DNA from: an uncultured Clostridia bacterium
Lineage (GTDB): Bacteria > Bacillota_A > Clostridia > Oscillospirales > Oscillospiraceae
Assembly: GCA_949289625.1 (NCBI GenBank)
Contig: CASEPH010000154.1
Span: 1 to 10,680, forward strand
Length of the DNA stretch: 10,680 nucleotides
Reading direction: 5' to 3'
The position numbers were made by a program, and so were the translations under genes. This document shows, piece after piece, positions 243 through 10,234 of this stretch (position 1 is the first letter of the stretch; each line of letters begins with the position of its first letter). The notes beneath the pieces are model-generated. The model worked only from the letters and a program-made list of their open reading frames with translations, had not been told where the DNA came from and did not search any database.

Positions 243-1628
243 ATGCCTGTAAAATCCACAAAGAAGCTGTTCTTTGCCAGAGACAATACCTTTTACCGGA
301 CATTGCTACGGCTTCTAGTGGTGGTGGCGCTTCAAAACGTATTGTCCTATTCTGTCAACGTGGCGGATAATTTGATGCTGGGCCGATACAGTCAGGCCGC
401 CCTTTCCGGGGCTGCCACTGTGAACCAGATCCAGTTCCTTGTGCAGCAGATCACCATTGCCATCGGAGACGCTGTGGTCATGCTAAACGCCCAATACTGG
501 GGCAGGCAAGATCTGTCCGCTATCCGAAGTCTTACCGGTGTTGGACTCAAAGTAGGGCTTGTTTTCGGCATGCTGGTGCTGGGAGTGACGACACTGTTTC
601 CCAGACAACTTCTTTGGCTGTTCACCACGGATGAAGAGATTATTGCAGCCGGGTTGGAGTACTTGGGACTGCTGAAATATACCTATGTGTTTTATGTGAT
701 GACGACCATTATGCTGGCTGCCCTGCGCAGTGTGGAAGTGGTCCAGATTGCCTTTGGAATCTCCGCAATGAGCTTGATTGTCAATGTGGGGATCAACTAC
801 ACCCTGATCTTTGGGAATTTTGGGTTTCCGGAGATGGGCGTTCGAGGTGCAGCTGTTGGAACCTTGACTGCCAGGATTTTGGAGTTTTGCGTGGTGCTGG
901 TTTATATCCTGCGTGTGGATAAAAAGCTGCGGCTGTTTACGGATAATCCCTTTCGACGGAACCGACAGCTGTTCCGGGATTATCGCCGTGTGGCGGTACC
1001 TGTTGTTTTGACAAATCTTCTGTGGAGTCTGGCGACGCCGATTCAAACAGGGATTTTAGGGCATCTGTCAGCGGATGCCATTGCGGCCAACTCTGTGGCA
1101 ACAACCATGTTTCAGTATCTCAAGGTGATTACGGTCAGCGAGGCCTCGGCCACATCGGTGGTGGTGGGAAAGATGGTGGGAGCGGGCACGGTGGAAAAGC
1201 ATGGCCTGCAGCCCTATGTGCATGCGCTTCAGGCCATTTTCCTTGTGATCGGTTTTTTACTGGGCGGTGTATTGCTTCTGATCCGAGGACCGCTACTGTC
1301 ATTTTACGCGCTTTCGCCCAGTGCGATGACGTTGGCTGGTCAACTGCTATTGCTAATGGTCTTGATCTTTGTGGGGATGGCCTACCAGATGCCGGCTTCC
1401 GTGGGGATTGTGCGGGGTGGAGGTGAGACCAAGTTCAATATGCGCTTGAATCTCATTTCTACTTGGGCCATTGTGATGCCGCTGTCCATTGCCGCTGCTT
1501 TTTGGTGGAAGCTGCCCGTTTTCTGGGTGGTGTTCTGTCTCAACTGCGACCAGATTTTCAAATGTATCCCGGTGGCGATTTACACCAATCAGTACCGCTG
1601 GGTTCATCAGTTGACCAGAAAGACCTAA
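243..1628 (+). CDS. MATE family multidrug/metabolite efflux transporter
   Basis: This encodes a 461-residue integral membrane protein of the MATE (multi antimicrobial extrusion) family, which exports cationic drugs or metabolites in exchange for Na+ or H+. The length is typical (about 440-470). Its sequence shows the expected bundle of roughly twelve hydrophobic helices in two homologous halves. The N-terminal half has the family-type segment VNVADNLMLGRYSQAALSG (residues ~39-57), and Q-rich helix contacts around NQIQFLVQQ. The second half restarts at the VPVVLTNLLWS stretch. The start is an ATG preceded by AGGGGGG at 230-236, spacing 6. No signal peptide is needed. It has its own promoter, and the stop lies about 54 bp before the -35 box of the riboflavin operon. 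The substrate is not evident. A flavin is one speculative option because of the neighbouring operon (the MATE proteins YeeO and Bfe export flavins), but drug efflux is the default reading. Confidence 0.92.
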   Translation: MPVKSTKKLFFARDNTFYRTLLRLLVVVALQNVLSYSVNVADNLMLGRYSQAALSGAATVNQIQFLVQQITIAIGDAVVMLNAQYWGRQDLSAIRSLTGVGLKVGLVFGMLVLGVTTLFPRQLLWLFTTDEEIIAAGLEYLGLLKYTYVFYVMTTIMLAALRSVEVVQIAFGISAMSLIVNVGINYTLIFGNFGFPEMGVRGAAVGTLTARILEFCVVLVYILRVDKKLRLFTDNPFRRNRQLFRDYRRVAVPVVLTNLLWSLATPIQTGILGHLSADAIAANSVATTMFQYLKVITVSEASATSVVVGKMVGAGTVEKHGLQPYVHALQAIFLVIGFLLGGVLLLIRGPLLSFYALSPSAMTLAGQLLLLMVLIFVGMAYQMPASVGIVRGGGETKFNMRLNLISTWAIVMPLSIAAAFWWKLPVFWVVFCLNCDQIFKCIPVAIYTNQYRWVHQLTRKT

Positions 1629-1681: not shown

Positions 1682-1710
1682 TTTACAAATGAAAAATTGC
1701 TGTGTATAAT
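1682..1710 (+). promoter_or_regulatory. Promoter of the riboflavin operon
   Basis: TTTACA (1682-1687) and a perfect TATAAT (1705-1710) are separated by exactly 17 bp, which is near consensus for the housekeeping sigma factor. Transcription should begin close to 1717, about 13 nt before the P1 helix of the FMN aptamer. This makes the riboswitch the first structured element of the mRNA. Confidence 0.85.
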
Positions 1711-1729
1711 ATTCTCAATTAAACTATAA

Positions 1730-1842
1730 GTCTTCAGGGCGGGGTGAAATTCCCCACCGGCGGTAAAGCCCGCGAGCGATCTTTTGATTTGCAGATCTGG
1801 TGAAATTCCAGGGCCGACAGTAAAGTCTGGATGAAAGAAGAC
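1730..1842 (+). ncRNA. FMN riboswitch (RFN element) aptamer
   Basis: The conserved RFN blocks are all present in order: AGGGCGGGGTGAAATTCCC near 1736, ACCGGCGGTAA near 1756, GCCCGCGAGC near 1768, GGTGAAATTCCAG near 1799, CCGACAGTAAAGTCTGGATG near 1814. The closing P1 helix is GTCTTC (1730-1735) with GAAGAC (1837-1842). The aptamer binds flavin mononucleotide and normally turns off riboflavin genes when FMN is plentiful. It lies directly upstream of ribD and is followed by an intrinsic terminator, so control is probably at transcription termination. Confidence 0.97.
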
Positions 1843-1861
1843 AGCATGATTCGATGCCTTC

Positions 1862-1894
1862 CCCCTGAAATGAGCAATCATTTCAGGGGTTTTT
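1862..1894 (+). terminator. Riboswitch-controlled intrinsic terminator
   Basis: A perfect 12-bp stem, CCCCTGAAATGA (1862-1873) with TCATTTCAGGGG (1878-1889), is closed by a GCAA loop and followed by five T residues. This is the expression platform of the FMN riboswitch. The first part of the 5' arm, CCCTGAA (1863-1869), can instead pair with TTCAGGG (1733-1739) in the 5' side of the aptamer, giving a plausible antiterminator in the FMN-free state. Confidence 0.93.
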
Positions 1895-1966: not shown

Positions 1967-3082
1967 ATGAACGATCAGGAACATATGCGACGGGCCATCG
2001 CTCTGGCAAAACAGGGCGCTGGATGGACCGCCCCAAACCCGCTGGTGGGGGCCGTGATTGTCAAACAGGGACGAATCATCGGAGAGGGGTGGCACCGTCG
2101 CTGCGGGGAGCTTCACGCAGAACGTAACGCCATTGCGTCGCTTCAGGAGTCCGCGGAGGGAGCCACCTTGTATGTCACGTTGGAGCCCTGTTGCCATTAT
2201 GGAAGGACGCCGCCCTGTACAGAGGCCATTTTGGAACAGGGAATCGCCAGGGTGGTCATCGGCTCCCGGGATCCCAATCCACTGGTGGCCGGCAAGGGTG
2301 CCGCAATGCTCCGCGCCAACGGCGTGCTAGTGGAGGAAGATTTCCTCCGGGAGGAGTGCGACAGCATCAATCCGGTGTTCTTTCACTATATCACCACAGG
2401 GAAGCCCTATGTGGTCATGAAATACGCTATGACGCTGGATGGAAAAATTGCAACTTACACCGGTGCATCTAAATGGATCACCGGAGAAGCTGCCCGGCAG
2501 CATGTGCATCAGCTTCGGGGACGGTATCGAGCCATCCTGGCTGGCATTGGCACAGTGCTGGCAGATGATCCAATGCTCAACTGTCGACTTCCTGGCTTTC
2601 GGCAGCCTGTGCGGATCATTGTGGATAGCCGTCTGCGGATACCTTTGAACAGTCAACTGGTTACGACAGCAAAGGACTATCGTACTATCGTCGCCTGCGC
2701 TGAGGGCACAGTGGAAACGGAAGCTGCGCTACAGGACCGGGGCGTGGAGGTACTGCGATGCCCCAATCAGGATGGCCAGGTGGATCTACGGTTATTGATG
2801 GAACGATTGGGAAACATGGAACTCGACAGCGTACTGATCGAGGGAGGCGGTGTGATCCATGAAGCAGCGCTGCGGGCTGGAATCGTCAATCACGTCTGCG
2901 CCTATGTTGCGCCCAAGCTTTTTGGCGGTGGTGCGGCAAAATCTCCCGTAGAAGGTGCTGGCGTTTCGTCTCCAGAACAGTGCGCCAAGCTGAACCATTT
3001 GCAAATTACACAGCTGGGAGAGGACCTGCTGTTGGAATACGATGTGGCAGGAGGGATGAACGGTGTTTACTGGAATCGTTGA
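1967..3082 (+). CDS. ribD: RibD: bifunctional diaminohydroxyphosphoribosylaminopyrimidine deaminase / 5-amino-6-(5-phosphoribosylamino)uracil reductase
   Basis: RibD carries out the second and third steps of riboflavin synthesis: zinc-dependent deamination of the pyrimidine made by GTP cyclohydrolase II, then NADPH-dependent reduction of the ribosyl side chain. The protein has 371 residues, a normal length. The N-terminal deaminase domain (about 1-145) shows the zinc site HAE at 50-52 and PCC...C with Cys75 and Cys84, at the same numbering as in the E. coli enzyme, with Glu52 as proton shuttle. The reductase domain (about 147-365) has KYAMTLDGKIA, SKWITG, GIGTVLADDP and IEGGG motifs. The ATG at 1967 is preferred because AGAAAGGGAG (1951-1960) sits six bases upstream; an in-frame TTG at 1937 lies in the preceding hairpin. 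It is the first gene of the FMN-riboswitch operon, and its last 20 bases overlap ribE. Confidence 0.97.
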   Translation: MNDQEHMRRAIALAKQGAGWTAPNPLVGAVIVKQGRIIGEGWHRRCGELHAERNAIASLQESAEGATLYVTLEPCCHYGRTPPCTEAILEQGIARVVIGSRDPNPLVAGKGAAMLRANGVLVEEDFLREECDSINPVFFHYITTGKPYVVMKYAMTLDGKIATYTGASKWITGEAARQHVHQLRGRYRAILAGIGTVLADDPMLNCRLPGFRQPVRIIVDSRLRIPLNSQLVTTAKDYRTIVACAEGTVETEAALQDRGVEVLRCPNQDGQVDLRLLMERLGNMELDSVLIEGGGVIHEAALRAGIVNHVCAYVAPKLFGGGAAKSPVEGAGVSSPEQCAKLNHLQITQLGEDLLLEYDVAGGMNGVYWNR

Positions 3083-3710
3083 GGAGATTGGAACTGTCCG
3101 GCGGGTGGGTTCCGGGGGAACCAGCGGCAGCATTGCCATCGGGGCTTCCACCGTGTTGGAGGGAACCCAAATCGGGGATTCCATCGCAGTCAACGGTGTG
3201 TGCCTGACGGTAACAAGCCTGGAACGGGATGGATTCACTGCAGATGTTATGCCGGAGACACTTCGAAGGAGCAATTTGGGCAGCCTTCGCAGTGGAGACC
3301 AGGTGGATCTGGAACGGGCTATGGCGGCAGAAGGCCGCTTTGGAGGTCATATCGTCTCCGGACATATCGACGGTGTGGGGACCATTCTATCACGCAGGCA
3401 AGAGGGCAACGCCAACTGGGTCACCATTTCCGCTTCACCGGAACTTTTACGTTTGATTGTGGAAAAGGGCTCTATCGCCATTGACGGTGTCAGCTTAACC
3501 GTGACGCAGGTGACGGACTCTGATTTTTCCGTATCCCTGATTCCTCACACTGGGGCCCAGACTGTTTTGCTGACAAAGGGACCGGGAAGTCAGGTCAATC
3601 TGGAAAATGACATTGTGGGCAAATATGTGGATCGGCTGCTTTCCTTTGCGGCTCCGAAACCGGAGAAAACAGGAATCACCCTGGAATTTTTGCAGCAGCA
3701 TGGGTTTTGA
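3063..3710 (+). CDS. ribE: RibE: riboflavin synthase alpha subunit
   Basis: Riboflavin synthase catalyses the last step, dismutation of two 6,7-dimethyl-8-ribityllumazine molecules into riboflavin and the pyrimidine precursor. The 215-residue protein has the family's N-terminal MFTGIVEEIG and two tandem lumazine-binding beta-barrel repeats (about 1-95 and 96-195). These are marked by the paired motifs SIAVNGVCLTV (with Cys47) and SIAIDGVSLTV, and by GHIVSGHIDG at the start of the second repeat. A C-terminal helix for trimerisation follows (EFLQQHGF end). The start is GTG at 3063, seven bases after AGGAGGG (3049-3055), which lies inside the ribD coding region. The 20-base overlap with ribD implies translational coupling. 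Some genera name this gene ribC or ribE; ribE is used here. Confidence 0.96.
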   Translation: MFTGIVEEIGTVRRVGSGGTSGSIAIGASTVLEGTQIGDSIAVNGVCLTVTSLERDGFTADVMPETLRRSNLGSLRSGDQVDLERAMAAEGRFGGHIVSGHIDGVGTILSRRQEGNANWVTISASPELLRLIVEKGSIAIDGVSLTVTQVTDSDFSVSLIPHTGAQTVLLTKGPGSQVNLENDIVGKYVDRLLSFAAPKPEKTGITLEFLQQHGF

Positions 3711-3747: not shown

Positions 3748-4962
3748 ATGAGCTTTACTTACAACACCATTCCCGAAGCACTGGAGGCTCTTCGGCAGGG
3801 AAAACTGATTCTTTGCACCGATGATCCGGAACGGGAGAACGAGGGAGATCTGATCTGCGCGGCGGAGTTTGCCACCACAGAGAACGTAAATTTTATGGCA
3901 GTCCACGGAAAGGGTTTGATCTGCACGCCCATGTCCCAGGCGCTGGCTCACCGGTTGAATCTGCCGCAGATGGTGTCCGAAAATACAGACAATCACTGCA
4001 CGGCCTTTACTGTCTCCATCGACCATGTGAACACCACCACAGGGATTTCTGCGGAAGAGCGTGGTTATACCTGCCGGATGTGTGTAGACGAGTCTACACG
4101 CCCTGAGGATCTGCGGCGGCCTGGACATGTATTTCCACTGGTGGCCCGGCATGGAGGCGTACTTGCCCGGGATGGTCACACGGAGGCCACTGTGGACCTG
4201 TGCCGTTTGGCTGGTCTCAAGGAATGCGGCCTGTGCTGTGAGGTCATGCGGGAGGACGGTACCATGATGCGTACCCCAGAACTCCAGGAGATGGCGAAGA
4301 CCTACGGCCTTTGCTTTATCACCATTAAAGACCTGCAGGACTATCTCCGTCGGTATGAATGCCACATGCAGCGGGAGGCCAGCGCCAAGCTGCCCACGGA
4401 ATACGGAGATTTTCAAATCTACGGCTATATCAATGACATTACCGGAGAACATCACGTGGCATTGGTATGTGGTGAAATTGGTGATGGAGAGGATATTTTA
4501 TGTCGAGTCCATTCCGAATGTCTGACAGGGGACGTATTTGGTTCCGCCCGCTGCGATTGCGGTGAACAGTTGAAAACTGCCATGCAGATGGTCCAGCGAG
4601 AGGGGAGAGGCATTATCCTCTATATGCGCCAGGAGGGGCGCGGCATAGGCCTCATCAACAAGCTCAAGGCCTATGAGCTGCAAGAGCATGGCCGGGATAC
4701 GGTGGAGGCCAACCTGGAACTGGGTTTTGACGCGGATCTGCGGGAATATTGGAGCGGTGCACAGATTCTCCAGGATCTGGGAGTGAAATCCCTCCGGCTG
4801 CTCACCAACAACCCCAGCAAAATCTACGGGCTGGAGGGCTTTGATTTCGTGATCCGGGAACGGGTGCCCATCGAGATCGCCCCGGGCGCCTATGATGAAT
4901 TTTATCTCAAAACCAAGCAGGATAAAATGGGTCACATCTTTAAGAAGATTCATTTTGCATAA
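3748..4962 (+). CDS. ribBA: RibBA: 3,4-dihydroxy-2-butanone-4-phosphate synthase / GTP cyclohydrolase II
   Basis: This fused enzyme supplies both precursors of the pathway. The N-terminal DHBP synthase (about 1-203) turns ribulose 5-phosphate into 3,4-dihydroxy-2-butanone 4-phosphate plus formate. The C-terminal GTP cyclohydrolase II (about 204-404) opens the GTP ring. Visible DHBP motifs are [12 protein letters not shown] (25-36), TTTGISA (96-102) and RPGHVFPL (124-131) with GHTEA (143-147). The cyclohydrolase half has the zinc ligands Cys258, Cys269 and Cys271 within [18 protein letters not shown], then [10 protein letters not shown] and the KAYELQ and NNPSK motifs. At 404 residues it is full length, and both active sites look complete, unlike the many RibBA proteins with a degraded half. 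The ATG is seven bases after AGGAGG (3735-3740). It lies 37 bp after ribE, in the same operon. Confidence 0.97.
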
Positions 4963-4993: not shown

Positions 4994-5467
4994 ATGAACA
5001 TTCAGAAGATCGAGGGAAAAGTCGTTGCCCCCCAGGGGATGCGTGTGGGAATTGTGGCGTCCCGATTCAACAGCTTTATTGTAGAAAAGCTGCTGGACGG
5101 AGCGGTGGACGGCTTGGTGCGCCACGGCGTTTCGGAGGATCATATCACCGCCTGCTGGGTTCCCGGTGCCTTTGAAATTCCGTTGGCAGCGCAGAAGATG
5201 GCTCGGTCCGATCAATATGACGCCGTGATCTGCGTTGGGGCAGTGATCCGGGGATCCACCAGCCATTACGAATATGTCTGCGCGGAGGTCTCTAAGGGAA
5301 TTGCCACAGTGGGACTTCAGACGGGAAAACCGGTACTATTCGGCGTAATCACCACAGAGAATATTGAACAGGCCATTGAACGGGCCGGATCCAAGGCTGG
5401 TAACAAGGGCTATGACTGCGCTCTTTCCGCCATTGAGATGGTCAATCTCATGGGACAGATCGGATGA
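4994..5467 (+). CDS. ribH: RibH: 6,7-dimethyl-8-ribityllumazine synthase
   Basis: Lumazine synthase condenses 5-amino-6-ribitylamino-uracil with dihydroxybutanone phosphate to form the direct riboflavin precursor, usually as a 60-subunit icosahedral shell or a pentamer. The 157-residue protein has the family's normal size and motifs: SRFN (23-26), WVPGAFEIP (55-63), [11 protein letters not shown] (82-92) with the catalytic His91, and GVITTEN near 117-123, followed by the [11 protein letters not shown] region. The ATG at 4994 is preceded by AAGGGAGG (4978-4985); longer in-frame upstream starts would run into the ribBA 3' end and lack this site. It follows ribBA by 31 bp, and its TGA stop overlaps the start codon of the next gene (ATGA), so the phosphatase gene is translationally coupled to it. 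Confidence 0.97.
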
Positions 5468-6129
5468 CGCTGATCTTTGACTGGGACGGCACCCTGCACA
5501 ATACGCTGCGGCTCTATGGGCATGCCTTTCGCGCAGCCTACAAGTGGCTTGTGGAGGGCGGTTTCGCACCGGAACAATACTATTCCGACGAGCAGGTTTC
5601 CAGATTTCTGGGCATGAACACGGCGGATATGTGGCAGAACTTTATGCCCGATCTTCCAGGTTCGATTGTCCAGGAGGCCAGCTCCAGAATCGGAAGGGAA
5701 TTGGTCCGGGCTGTGGACCGGGGAGAGGCCCAGCTCTATGACGGTGTGCCGGAGATGCTGGAGCAGCTTCATGCACTGGGATATACCCTGGTGTTCCTCT
5801 CCAATTGCCAGCACGACTATCAGGAGGCCCATCGGAAGTATTTTCACCTGGATCTCTGGTTTTCCGGATATTTCTGCTGCGAGGACTATCAGGGACGGCC
5901 CAAGGAGGAGATTTTTCGGGAAATTGCCGCTCAGTTCCCCGGACCCTATCTGGTGATTGGAGATCGGGATTCGGATATGCGGGTGGCACAAGTACACGGG
6001 TTGAAAAGCATTGGCTGTCTGTATGGATTTGGGAGACCAGAGGAGCTGTGCACAGCAAACGAACGGGTGATGTCCTGCGGAGAGATTCCGGATAGCGTTC
6101 AACGGCTTTTGCTCTCGGAAAAGTCATAA
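5464..6129 (+). CDS. HAD-superfamily phosphatase, candidate for the riboflavin-pathway pyrimidine phosphatase
   Basis: The 221-residue protein has all four haloacid-dehalogenase motifs: DWDGTL (Asp6 nucleophile and Asp8), FLSN (Ser113), Lys147 in GRPKEE, and GDRDSD (Asp167, Asp171). The roughly 75-residue insertion between motifs I and II is a helical C1 cap, placing it in the phosphoglycolate phosphatase-like subfamily I. It is the last gene of the riboflavin operon and starts within the ribH stop (ATGA), so it is made in step with lumazine synthase. The pathway needs a phosphatase to convert 5-amino-6-(5-phosphoribitylamino)uracil to its dephosphorylated form before RibH. Known enzymes for this (YcsE, YbjI, YigB) are HAD proteins. 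That role is inferred from context only; FMN hydrolysis or general phosphate-ester cleavage are alternatives. Confidence 0.85.
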
Positions 6130-6223: not shown

Positions 6224-7556
6224 TTAGCGAAATTCTCTATACAGTTGTTTATAAAACAGGATACCTGCAAGAACTGCGGTGAACACATCAGCAATGGCTT
6301 GAGAAACCAAAATTCCCATATAACCGACCGTATGATAAGCGATTATCAGGACAAGTAAAAACACAACGCCCTGTCGGCTGATGGAGAGAATAAAGGAACC
6401 TGCAACCTTTCCGGTGGACTGAAATAGAATCGTCAGAAGCAGGATGATCCCAACGAATAGGGTGGAGATTACTTGCCAGCGCAGCATGATCGTTCCATCG
6501 GCAACAATGGTTTCGTTGGACATGAAGCTCCGCATGAGAAGGGGGGCCGCCAGAAAGAGAAGGACGGTTAGACCCAAAGAAATCAGGCCGATAAAGCGGA
6601 GACAGAATTGGAATAATTCGCGCATACGTTTTTTATCCCCGGCGCCATAGTAGAAACCGAACATGGGTTGGCCTCCAAAGGCAAAGCCTGTGAGGATCAG
6701 TAACGCAATCATATTGACCTTCAATACGATCCCCATGGCCGCGATTTTCTCATTTCCATAGGGAAGCAGAAACTGGTTCATAAGCACCACACTGGCACTC
6801 TGCATCACATTGATAATGGCTGCGGGAATTCCAATCCCCAAAATCTGCCCCATATGTTGGATTGATACTTTGATCTTTTTTGGGTCCACCGAGAGTGAAG
6901 CGCTTTTTTTTTGCTACTACGAGAATAAAGCATATGTCAGCACAGAGATACCCGATCACTGTGGCGACAGCTGCACCGCTGGCGCCCCAATCCAGAGCAG
7001 AAATAAAGATTGGATCCAGAACGATGTTGACCAATGCCCCCAGAATGGTCCCAATCATGGATTCTTTTGACATTCCTTCGGAACGCAGAAAGTTGGAATG
7101 GATAAAAGAAAGCATGATGATGGGAGCACCAACTGCCAAGTAGATATAGTAGCTGGAGGCGTAGTTGTAGGTTTCCGCATTGGCTCCGATCACGTATAAA
7201 ATGGGATTTCGGAAAACCAGCATAACAGCAGCAATCACAATGCCAATAAATATGGTAACATAAAAGCAAAAGGCGCTGACATGCTGTACATTTTCGTGGT
7301 CCTTTTGGCCCAGCATACGCGAAATCAGTGAGGAACCACCTTGTCCAAAGATATTGCCCAATGCCATCAACAGGATAAACAATGGCGTTCCCAATGATAC
7401 GCCAGCAACCAGATTGGTGTTATTGGTTTGCGCGACGAAAAATGTGTCGGCAAGATTGTATATGAGGGTTACCACCAAACTGAACACCAGCGGCAACGCC
7501 ATATGAATATATGTCTTGGACACTTTGTTTTCTGAAAATAATGCCTGATCCATCAT
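6224..7556 (-). pseudogene. MATE family efflux transporter (MepA-like), frameshifted
   Basis: Two overlapping minus-strand frames together make one complete MATE protein of about 443 residues. The N-terminal part runs from ATG 7556 through LADTFFVAQTNN, IFGQGGSSLISRMLGQ and GALVNIVLDPIFI to AKKK near 6904. The C-terminal part, in another frame, continues from SLSVDPKKIKV near 6890 through GIPAAIINVMQSASVVLMNQF and GFAFGGQPMFGFYYGAG to the TAA at 6224-6226. The switch falls at a run of nine As on the coding strand (plus 6904-6912). Eight As would restore one frame. The start is supported by AGAGAGG a few bases upstream (ATGATG at 7556/7553). It is divergent from a Crp/Fnr regulator that probably controls it. 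It could be a true pseudogene, a phase-variable gene, a slippage-expressed gene or an assembly error. The pump is of the MepA type (cationic drugs), but the substrate is unknown. Confidence 0.85.
6904..6912 (-). other. A9 homopolymer at the MATE frameshift
   Basis: The plus strand has nine Ts between CGC and GC, read as nine As on the coding strand. The upstream frame uses GCA AAA AAA AAG CGC. The downstream frame needs AGC GCT after the A-run, which requires one A fewer or two more. Runs of nine or more As are known sites of replication slippage, RNA polymerase slippage and sequencing error. Confidence 0.85.
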
Positions 7557-7569
7557 TGCACCTCTCTTT

Positions 7570-7605
7570 AAAATCAAACCGATTATATCATTTTCGTTTG
7601 ATTTT
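7570..7605. repeat. 10-bp inverted repeat around the MATE -10 box
   Basis: AAAATCAAAC (7570-7579) and GTTTGATTTT (7596-7605) are perfect inverted copies separated by 16 bp. The predicted minus-strand -10 element TATAAT (7587 down to 7582) lies between them. The centre-to-centre distance of the arms is about 26 bp. They may be operator half-sites or may form a weak AT-rich hairpin. Confidence 0.6.
7582..7587 (-). promoter_or_regulatory. -10 element of the minus-strand MATE gene, no good -35 box
   Basis: A perfect TATAAT reads on the minus strand from 7587 to 7582 and predicts a start near 7575, about 19 bp upstream of the ATG at 7556. At a 17-bp spacing the -35 position reads CAATAA, with little match to TTGACA. 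The missing -35 box and the palindrome just upstream point to an activator-dependent promoter. Confidence 0.65.
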
Positions 7606-8362: not shown

Positions 8363-8375
8363 TAAACCAGCCAAA

Positions 8376-8617
8376 AGCGATGATCGGAAACAAGTAGGTC
8401 CTGACACGTTCTCAGAGAGCTGCCGGCTGGTGCAAGGCAGTGAACAAATCAGCCGCCGAATACATTCCGTAGCTCCGGTCTGAACGCGAATGTCAGTAGG
8501 ATACGGCGGGAGGCCCGTTATAGCTGAAGGACATAGAATTGTGTTCTGAGTCCGTCTGTTACTTCAGACGGAAAAAAGAGGTGGTACCACGGTACGGCGT
8601 GCGTCGTGTCGTCCTCT
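8376..8617 (+). ncRNA. T-box leader, specifier TAC (tRNA-Tyr)
   Basis: This leader RNA reads the charging state of a tRNA and allows transcription when it is uncharged. Stem I begins with AGCGATGA (K-turn GA motif, 8376-8383). The basal helix CGGAA (8385-8389) pairs with TTCCG (8465-8469), and AGTA (8393-8396) forms the specifier-loop S-turn. AGAGAG and CTGCC/GGCAG make the distal part. The 3' side of the specifier loop reads GAA-TAC-A (8458-8464), giving a Tyr specifier at 8461-8463. The conserved CCGTTA of the stem IIA/B pseudoknot is at 8515-8520, and stem III is 8551-8572. The T-box sequence AGGTGGTACCACGG (8579-8592) has the bulge TGGT, which fits an ACCA tRNA end as in tRNA-Tyr. The antiterminator pairs AGAGG (8577-8581) with CCTCT (8613-8617), and ACG (8589-8591) with CGT (8610-8612). 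That is incompatible with the terminator. Confidence 0.95.
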
Positions 8618-8642
8618 GCAGGAGCAGGGGACGACTATTTTT
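8608..8642 (+). terminator. T-box controlled terminator
   Basis: GTCGTCCTCTGC (8608-8619) pairs with GCAGGGGACGAC (8624-8635) over 12 bp with one wobble and an AGGA loop, followed by TATTTTT (8636-8642). Its 5' arm shares bases 8610-8617 with the T-box antiterminator, so the two structures exclude each other. Confidence 0.93.
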
Positions 8643-8644
8643 GT

Positions 8645-8663
8645 CTCCTGTAGAAAAAAGGAG
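8645..8663 (+). promoter_or_regulatory. Possible ribosome-site-sequestering hairpin
   Basis: CTCCT (8645-8649) can pair with AGGAG (8659-8663), the Shine-Dalgarno sequence of the symporter. The same CTCCTG (8645-8650) can instead pair with CAGGAG (8619-8624) in the terminator loop region, which would free the ribosome site. The stem is short and its effect unproven. Confidence 0.3.
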
Positions 8664-8671
8664 TGAAAAAC

Positions 8672-10234
8672 ATGGCAATCAAACTTATTTTTCTAGTGGT
8701 TTTCTTTGCGGCCATGCTGCTGGTAGGCATTCGGTGCAGGAAACACAGCATGGACGTCAACGGGTTTGTGCTTGGTGGACGTGCGGTAGGACCATGGCTT
8801 ACCGCATTTGCCTTCGGGACATCCTATTTTTCCGCAGTTATCTTTGTAGGCTACGCGGGCCAGTTTGGCTGGAATTTCGGCATTGCCTCCACATGGATTG
8901 GCTTGGGAAATGCATTTATCGGCTCTCTGCTGGCCTGGACCGTTCTGGGACGGAGAACCCGCATAATGACGCAGCATCTTGGATCCAAAACGATGCCGGA
9001 GTTCTTTGAAAATCGTTATCACTCCAGCGCTCTGAAAATTGCAGCGTCTATCATCACATTTGTTTTCCTCATTCCATATACCGCGTCTTTGTTCAATGGC
9101 CTGTCTAGATTGTTTGAGATGGCGTTCAGTGTGGATTATGCGGTGTGTGTCATTGTGATGGCTGTTTTGACGGGGATCTATGTCATTGTGGGTGGATATA
9201 TGGCCACAGCGGTCAATGACTTTATTCAAGGAATTATCATGCTTTTTGGTATTGTGGCCATCATTGCTGCTGTTTTGCTTCAGAATGGAGGACTGATGGG
9301 GTCTTTGGCAGCGTTGTCCCTTGTGGAATCTGATGTGATGCAAGGAGCTTATACTTCTTTTTTTGGACCGCAGCCGTTTTATCTGCTCGTCGTGGTATTG
9401 CTGACGTCGCTTGGTACCTGGGGGCTGCCTCAGATGGTGGGCAAGTTCTATGCAATTAAAGACGAGGGTTCGATATCCAAGGGGACCATTATTTCAACGT
9501 TTTTTGCCATTGTGGTCGCTGGTGGATGTTACTTTCTGGGTGGCTTTGGACGACTTTTTTCCACACCGGAGGCAGTGGACGCCAACGGCTTTGACAGCAT
9601 CATTCCCTCCATGCTTTCCGGCCTTCCTGACGTGCTGATCGCGGTTGTGCTGATCCTTGTGCTGTCTGCGTCCATGTCCACGCTGTCCTCTCTGGTGCTG
9701 ACCTCCAGCTCGACACTGGTGCTGGACCTTGTGGTCCCCGCCAGAGAGCAGAACGGAAAAGAAATTCCGGAAAAAAGCAAAATGCTTAGTTTGCGTGTTT
9801 TCGTGGCGTTCTTTATTGCGGTTTCCGCTGTAATCGCCATTGTTCAGGCGAAATCCAAGGTCACCTTTATTGCGCAGCTCATGGGTATTTCCTGGGGGGC
9901 CTTGGCAGGTGCTTTTTTGGCTCCTTTTTTGTACGGACTATATTGGAAAAAAACAACAAGAGGCGGCGTTGCAGCAGGGTTCACTTTTGGTGTGCTGCTG
10001 ATGCTGGTACAGCTTTGCATCTCTTTGAGCGGTGTTTCTCTGGCCGGGGGATTTTTCGGGTTGATTTTCCGTAATTCTCTGTATTCTGGGGTGTTTGCCA
10101 TGGTGGGGAGTCTGGTGATTGTACCTGCGGTCAGTCTCTTGACACAGAAAACAAAACCATCCGATACAGAGGCTATGTTTTCTTGCTATGATACTACCGT
10201 TGAGGTAAAGGCAAAGACCGCTCTGCGTGATTAA
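8672..10234 (+). CDS. Sodium:solute symporter (SSS/SLC5 family), probably tyrosine-responsive
   Basis: The 520-residue protein is a multi-spanning transporter of the SSS family (PutP, PanF and relatives), which couples Na+ entry to uptake of amino acids, sugars or vitamins. Family features are GGRAVGPW (35-42) followed by AFGTSYFSAVIFVGYAG in the first core helices, a G-rich YVIVGGYMA segment near 170-180, and a Ser/Thr-rich helix (LSASMSTLSSLVLTSSS, about 330-347) that holds the second sodium site. About thirteen hydrophobic helices and a polar C-terminal tail are visible. The ATG at 8672 follows AAGGAG (8658-8663) by eight bases; the GTG at 8663 overlaps that site and is rejected. It lies alone behind a Tyr-type T-box, so its synthesis should rise when tRNA-Tyr is uncharged. 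This makes tyrosine or an aromatic relative the best guess for substrate, by inference from regulation only. Confidence 0.93.
   Translation: MAIKLIFLVVFFAAMLLVGIRCRKHSMDVNGFVLGGRAVGPWLTAFAFGTSYFSAVIFVGYAGQFGWNFGIASTWIGLGNAFIGSLLAWTVLGRRTRIMTQHLGSKTMPEFFENRYHSSALKIAASIITFVFLIPYTASLFNGLSRLFEMAFSVDYAVCVIVMAVLTGIYVIVGGYMATAVNDFIQGIIMLFGIVAIIAAVLLQNGGLMGSLAALSLVESDVMQGAYTSFFGPQPFYLLVVVLLTSLGTWGLPQMVGKFYAIKDEGSISKGTIISTFFAIVVAGGCYFLGGFGRLFSTPEAVDANGFDSIIPSMLSGLPDVLIAVVLILVLSASMSTLSSLVLTSSSTLVLDLVVPAREQNGKEIPEKSKMLSLRVFVAFFIAVSAVIAIVQAKSKVTFIAQLMGISWGALAGAFLAPFLYGLYWKKTTRGGVAAGFTFGVLLMLVQLCISLSGVSLAGGFFGLIFRNSLYSGVFAMVGSLVIVPAVSLLTQKTKPSDTEAMFSCYDTTVEVKAKTALRD

Follow-up and report, generated by a model that had tools for sequence, protein, structure and literature searches.

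A HAD-IA phosphatase gene behind ribH in a clostridial riboflavin operon and its probable role in the dephosphorylation of ArPP

The riboflavin operon and its last gene

We analysed a stretch of 10,680 nucleotides (the window) of contig CASEPH010000154.1 from an uncultured Clostridia bacterium. It contains a complete riboflavin operon in the order FMN riboswitch, ribD, ribE, ribBA, ribH and HAD gene, the HAD gene being the fifth and last gene. The features of the operon and its control region are as follows.

1682–1710, plus strand: promoter-like site TTTACA-17-TATAAT (11/12 match), upstream of the FMN riboswitch
1726–1846, plus strand: FMN riboswitch aptamer (RFN element), Rfam RF00050, 124.1 bits (gathering threshold 66.2)
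1862–1889, plus strand: terminator-like hairpin after the aptamer, 12 pairs followed by TTTTT
1967–3082, plus strand: ribD, deaminase/reductase making ArPP, TIGR00326, 359.7 bits (cut-off 156.35)
3063–3710, plus strand: ribE, riboflavin synthase with a GTG start, NF006767, 238.5 bits (cut-off 155)
3748–4962, plus strand: ribBA, DHBP synthase / GTP cyclohydrolase II, NF006803, 590.6 bits (cut-off 569)
4994–5467, plus strand: ribH, lumazine synthase, TIGR00114, 190.3 bits (cut-off 84.6)
5464–6129, plus strand: HAD-IA (C1-cap) phosphatase of 221 aa, predicted dedicated ArPP phosphatase

RibD, RibE, RibBA and RibH each scored above the cut-off of their NCBIfam equivalog model. According to these matches the four genes together cover all steps of riboflavin synthesis except the dephosphorylation of 5-amino-6-(5-phosphoribitylamino)uracil (ArPP), as the initial annotation had proposed. 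An alternative start of ribD is possible at an in-frame TTG (position 1937). The genes ribD and ribE overlap, ribE and ribBA are 37 bp apart and ribBA and ribH 31 bp. At the last junction ribH and the HAD gene share the letters ATGA at 5464–5467, with the HAD start codon at 5464–5466 and the ribH stop codon TGA at 5465–5467. The sequence and the RF00050 match thus confirmed that the HAD gene is complete, that it lies under the FMN riboswitch and that it overlaps the ribH stop. In the control region we found 3 promoter-like sites compared to 2.9 expected, so that the support for the site at 1682–1710 consists of its position and its score. The number of terminator-like hairpins was also close to expectation (4 found, 3.9 expected); the stem of the hairpin at 1862–1889 is the longest by far and it is probably the expression platform of the riboswitch.

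The HAD protein matched PF13419 with 62.1 bits (cut-off 23.8) and the HAD-IA model TIGR01549 with 37.8 bits (cut-off 23.3). All four HAD motifs (DxDGT, S/T, K and GDxxxD) are present and the full set of catalytic residues that had been noted at the outset (D6, D8, S113, K147, D167 and D171) proved to be conserved. These residues are common to the ribH-linked clade described below, to its outside relatives and to the outgroup. By the HAD chemistry that we assume here, D6 would attack the phosphate and form an aspartyl-phosphate intermediate with D8 as general acid/base, while S113 and K147 would hold the phosphate and D167 and D171 the Mg2+. HAD subfamily IA carries a C1 cap. The AlphaFold2 model of the protein (mean pLDDT 96) displays a helical insertion between motifs I and II at residues 15–85, with predicted cap helices at 15–31, 42–48, 53–60 and 66–85, and the modelled insertion is as expected for such a cap.

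In the NCBIfam comparison the protein was above the cut-off for no equivalog model. We checked four known types of phosphatase and rejected each of them. For phosphoglycolate phosphatase (Gph) the scores were 39.7 bits with NF009695 (cut-off 225) and 22.4 bits with TIGR01449 (cut-off 180). The Cof-type models PF08282 and TIGR00099, which would point to YbjI or YcsE, both remained without a match. The YigB model NF008018 was not among the 17 models matching the protein at E 0.01, and BLASTP against YigB gave an E-value of 0.44. The Pfam matches were to HAD-type families only, which argues against a histidine-family phosphatase of the Aquifex type.

Linkage to ribH and occurrence across genomes

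To survey relatives we scanned one genome per species with the pattern [FL]D[WYF]DGT[LI]H[ND] and kept the best 80 of 349 relatives. As a single pattern was used, H12 is fixed by selection in these 80 loci and relatives without H12 are invisible among them. For 77 of the best 80 we observed ribH upstream of the HAD gene on the same strand. Between the ribH stop and the start of the aligned HAD there was a median of 5 bp; the spacing was at most 30 bp in 72 and at most 36 bp in 75 of the 77 loci, and the remaining two, with 186 and 390 bp, are from Coriobacteria. The taxa among the best 80 include Oscillospiraceae, Lachnospiraceae, Clostridium, Sedimentibacter, Niameybacter and Coriobacteria, and the arrangement occurs in many Clostridia of the gut and the rumen. 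There are three exceptions to the linkage. In L044 the HAD gene lies near a contig end. In L050 (Hugonella) it is unlinked, though the genome has RibH and RibBA. In L001, a clade member, rib genes are absent within 10 kb of the HAD gene and both RibH and RibBA are absent from the 1.2 Mb MAG, which is likely to be incomplete.

The riboswitch was present as well: in a scan of 15 linked loci with Rfam, ribD was preceded by an FMN riboswitch in 14, and in the remaining one (L002) the contig starts 161 bases before the ribD match. Some of the operons show peculiarities of their own. In L061 (4888–8725) two copies of HAD and RibH in opposite orientation flank pieces of RibBA on one contig, perhaps an assembly artefact. 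The rib operon of L020 (Ruminococcus flavefaciens) has extra ORFs at 6413–7270 and 8481–9506. One of them resembles a lipoprotein gene and lies between ribE and ribBA; two others are small, resemble membrane proteins and separate ribBA from ribH. Other loci of the R. flavefaciens type show similar gaps within the operon.

We then turned to even samples of genomes, which were searched by profile and are independent of the H12 pattern. The class sample comprises 292 genomes from the class of G003 (taken as Clostridia), each at least 85% complete, and RibH was found in 92 of them. There were 14 HAD matches of at least 141.8 bits and one of 112 bits (a broken copy in G287), followed by a continuum from 94 bits downward. 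Thirteen of the 14 strong matches are clade members, and all 13 occur in genomes with RibH and lie directly behind ribH. The fourteenth (G150, L176, 141.8 bits) has RibH on a different contig and is placed outside the clade by the tree, so that each of the 14 genomes carries RibH. Fisher's test for clade members with RibH gave p = 1.6e-7 for 13/13 and p = 1.6e-6 for 11/11 after removal of the two seed genomes, both values being uncorrected for kinship.

The other samples gave a similar picture. In the family of G003 (120 genomes) the HAD gene was found in 7 genomes and RibH in 32; all 7 have RibH and are adjacent to it by coordinates, three of them (G003, G006 and G011) having been seeds. For the class of G016, a Hugonella genome that had served as a seed, we found the HAD gene in 2 of 119 genomes, both among the 54 with RibH; it is unlinked in G016 and separated from ribH by one gene in G362. 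Across the phylum of G003 (348 genomes) there were 9 places of at least 200 bits, 9/9 directly behind ribH, of which two (G003 and G057) had already been counted in other samples. None of the 11 places of 141–159 bits examined in this sample had a rib gene within 1.5 kb, and 13 weaker places were outside the count. RibH thus accompanies 13/13, 7/7 and 2/2 clade members in the class, family and G016 samples, the exception to this co-occurrence being L001 from the relatives scan. The initial annotation had named the gene a candidate ArPP phosphatase whose linkage to ribH should be conserved, and the survey agrees with it (77/80 among the best 80 of 349 relatives, 13/13, 7/7 and 9/9).

Most RibH genomes of the class sample have to manage the step in another way. 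Of the 92, 78 were without a match of at least 141.8 bits and we conclude that other enzymes perform the ArPP step there; 79 of the 92 lack an intact clade member, and the clade is therefore the solution of one lineage and not a general one. Two of the 78 have split or broken HAD copies behind ribH (L161 in G127 and L164 in G287), resulting either from sequencing errors or from decay. In the other 76 the HAD profile matched nowhere in the surroundings of ribH (at most 5 kb on each side, less at contig ends). A same-strand gene of at least 80 aa lies within 600 bp downstream of ribH in 46 of the 78 genomes, two of the 46 being the broken HAD copies. A Pfam scan of 10 of these 46 neighbours (gaps of at most 110 bp, at least 144 aa) revealed no phosphatase; the 10 are unrelated or without a family, namely a formate transporter, NDK, Dus, LigB/AMMECR1, an L,D-transpeptidase, a dicarboxylate symporter, a histidine kinase, Uma2, a copper amine oxidase N-domain and one protein without a family. 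Neither YigB nor YbjI as a phmmer query had a hit at E 1e-3 among the ORFs of the 94 loci L087–L180.

The gene had also been expected in genomes that lack homologues of YcsE and YbjI, an expectation for which the class sample gave no support. We observed Cof-type relatives at E 1e-30 in 9 of 13 clade genomes (10 of 14 with G150) compared to 44 of the 78 RibH genomes without a hit and 40 of the 200 genomes without RibH, by a model that lacks specificity for ArPP phosphatases. Within the class sample Cof-type phosphatases are thus not depleted where the clade gene is present. The YcsE model NF045966 was of no use as a discriminator, as it was over its cut-off in 0 of the 292 genomes and in 0 of 14 controls including B. 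subtilis.

Phylogeny and residues of the ribH-linked clade

The 29 proteins of the clade, including the unlinked L001 and L050, are set apart from all other rows of a 49-row tree by a branch with a support of 100/99 that occurs in 100% of the bootstrap trees. A tree of 85 rows recovered the same clade with a support of 99/99. The unity of the 12 relatives outside the clade is without support (44/0 in the 49-row tree) and calling them the sister group is a label of convenience. L176, the match of 141.8 bits in G150, fell outside the clade in both trees and was rejected as a clade hit. Five entries were left out of the trees and of the conservation counts: L161 and L164 because their copies are split or broken, L200 as a piece of 45 residues, and L178 and L180 because L080 and L050 already represent these genes. 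As the unlinked members belong to the same single clade, linkage to ribH is probably ancestral and was lost at least twice. The distances between HAD proteins track those of the four rib proteins (62 loci) with r between 0.77 and 0.83, compared to 0.77–0.88 among the pairs of rib proteins themselves. Plain vertical inheritance of the operon alone could produce the same agreement of distances and trees.

Two residues set the clade apart. H12, which is located just after the DxDGT loop, and Y18, in the first cap helix, do not vary among the 29 rows of the clade, and neither residue occurs in the 12 relatives or the 8 outgroup rows. For 14 of the 29 rows the profile searches did not require H12, and Y18 was not part of the scan pattern. 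Across 93 clade sequences we counted H12 in 98% and Y18 in 99%, the figure for H12 being inflated because 80 of the 93 were found with the H12 pattern.

The relatives outside the clade show a neighbourhood of a different kind. L214, L216, L217 and L221 are each followed immediately, on the same strand, by a flavin-reductase-like gene. This makes 4 of the 12 loci compared to 1 of 189 background loci, three of the four being closely related to one another. PF01613 was confirmed for the neighbours of L216 and L217. A flavin-related substrate is possible for these proteins.

Function and alternative explanations

The dephosphorylation of ArPP is described as a step of riboflavin synthesis without a dedicated bacterial enzyme, most candidates being promiscuous HADs (PMC7017516, PMC12051542), and further papers treat it as open or partly solved (PMC7693651, PMC12542839, PMC13028884). 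Candidates include the products of yigB, ybjI and ycsE, plant enzymes and the docking-predicted EFI-501083, and the riboflavin operon of B. subtilis is given as one without a phosphatase gene (PMC7017516). The products of yigB, ybjI and ycsE are reported to hydrolyse both FMN and ArPP (PMC7017516). In the descriptions of PMC7017516 and PMC12051542 single deletions of these genes cause no auxotrophy. The reported HAD ArPP phosphatases are considered nonspecific, and a dedicated histidine-family phosphatase has been proposed for Aquifex, an enzyme which hydrolyses FMN too (PMC12051542). A specific enzyme of Arabidopsis is mentioned in PMC7693651. The main text of PMC3766115 on FMN regulons does not contain the word 'phosphatase'. 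Titles and abstracts of the mainly open-licence literature yielded no HAD gene conserved behind ribH in Clostridia, which does not by itself establish its absence in print.

The C1 cap had been taken as a sign of a separate solution to the ArPP step, and this can be upheld only in part. YbjI is a Cof-type protein with a C2 cap, and YcsE is presumably also a Cof-type HAD with a C2 cap. Both belong to the HAD superfamily and the same reaction has been proposed for them as we propose for the window protein; YbjI matches PF08282 and TIGR00099 (Cof/HAD-IIB), whereas the window protein matches neither. E. coli YigB (b3812), a reported ArPP phosphatase, is however a HAD-IA protein as well (TIGR01549 52.4 bits, cut-off 23.3). 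It differs from the window protein by its location outside a rib operon, between xerC and uvrD, and the pair shows no significant similarity. As the window protein is HAD-IA but not a YigB orthologue, it represents another lineage of YigB's cap type. YigB is considered nonspecific and its deletion is reported to be without effect on riboflavin-free growth (PMC12051542). The histidine-family phosphatase of Aquifex aeolicus, like the window protein a proposed dedicated ArPP phosphatase, has another fold and belongs to another superfamily (PMC12051542). Like the window protein, Arabidopsis At4g11570 and others, with demonstrated ArPP activity, and EFI-501083 of B. thetaiotaomicron, with docking-predicted ArPP activity, are HAD enzymes (PMC7017516). 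Identity to 3mc1 (a predicted phosphatase of C. acetobutylicum) and to the alnumycin P phosphatase AlnB (4ex6/4ex7) is about 23%; a common fold is no proof of function.

From genomic context, chemistry and distribution we consider it quite probable that the HAD gene encodes a dedicated HAD-IA phosphatase for ArPP (EC 3.1.3.104). The predicted enzyme would strip the phosphate from ArPP, the product of RibD, and leave a dephosphorylated product usable by RibH. Its translation may be coupled to that of ribH, and H12 and Y18 may contribute to the pocket that receives the ribitylaminouracil group. A stronger form of this reading is tentative and has somewhat less than even chances: that the clade is truly dedicated, preferring ArPP over FMN by means of the H12/Y18 pocket, that translational coupling keeps the enzyme in fixed proportion to lumazine synthase and that the unstable product is perhaps handed over directly to RibH.

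An alternative is that the gene encodes an FMN phosphatase which sets the balance of FMN and riboflavin or feeds riboflavin export and is co-regulated by the FMN riboswitch. The flavin-reductase-like neighbours outside the clade fit such a role, as does the hydrolysis of FMN by the known rib-related HADs. The initial annotation had argued against FMN hydrolysis because of the futile cycle that it would create; the argument does not discriminate, since the yigB, ybjI and ycsE products and the Aquifex enzyme hydrolyse FMN besides ArPP (PMC7017516, PMC12051542). What weakens the FMN reading is the direction of control, as by general riboswitch logic the gene would be silenced at high FMN, the wrong way round for FMN removal, and also the place of the gene among biosynthetic genes and the restriction of the clade to RibH-bearing genomes in the samples. 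We regard this role as unlikely.

Even less probable in our judgement is a role outside the main flux, in damage control or overflow, with the phosphatase disposing of some reactive by-product of the pathway such as DHBP left unused, DARPP or an intermediate that has been oxidised or epimerised. ArPP is reported to be unstable in oxygen (PMC12051542) and the majority of the RibH-bearing genomes of the class sample manage without the gene, both of which would suit it. Hydrolysis of DHBP or DARPP would however drain the pathway, in which the phosphate of ArPP is the sole one that needs to be removed, and the tight and repeated position behind ribH fits better with the supply of the RibH substrate. 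We give a similarly slight chance to an accident of gene order that placed a generic HAD-IA phosphatase, of broad or phosphoglycolate-type activity, in the operon. HADs are often promiscuous, no equivalog model exceeds its cut-off and the score with the phosphoglycolate-type model is far below its threshold. An accident is difficult to reconcile with a linkage that one clade has maintained over several families and two phyla, apart from two unlinked members in the trees, with the exclusive co-occurrence with RibH in the samples and with H12 and Y18, which are missing outside the clade.

The clade is a riboswitch-controlled group of phosphatases kept behind ribH over a broad lineage; it would join the known HAD ArPP phosphatases, and as a dedicated one. 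Given a ribH-linked clade under an FMN riboswitch, one small protein is enough to put the question to a direct test. The gene may find use in strains for riboflavin production, and with it the annotation of the pathway would become complete in many Clostridia.

Further genes are located on either side of the operon. A MATE transporter gene lies upstream of the riboswitch (243–1628, plus strand) and another one downstream of the HAD gene (6224–7577, minus strand). The frame of the latter is interrupted, as it consists of two overlapping ORFs in different frames (6224–6889 and 6750–7577). We rejected the MATE transporter as a conserved rib neighbour, and with it the idea of flavin export, since homologs at E 1e-10 occurred in only three loci besides the window (L001, L077 and L080). 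Further downstream a T-box leader (8371–8619, 102.2 bits) directly precedes a sodium:solute symporter gene (8663–10234, PF00474), perhaps a tRNA-controlled amino acid transporter.
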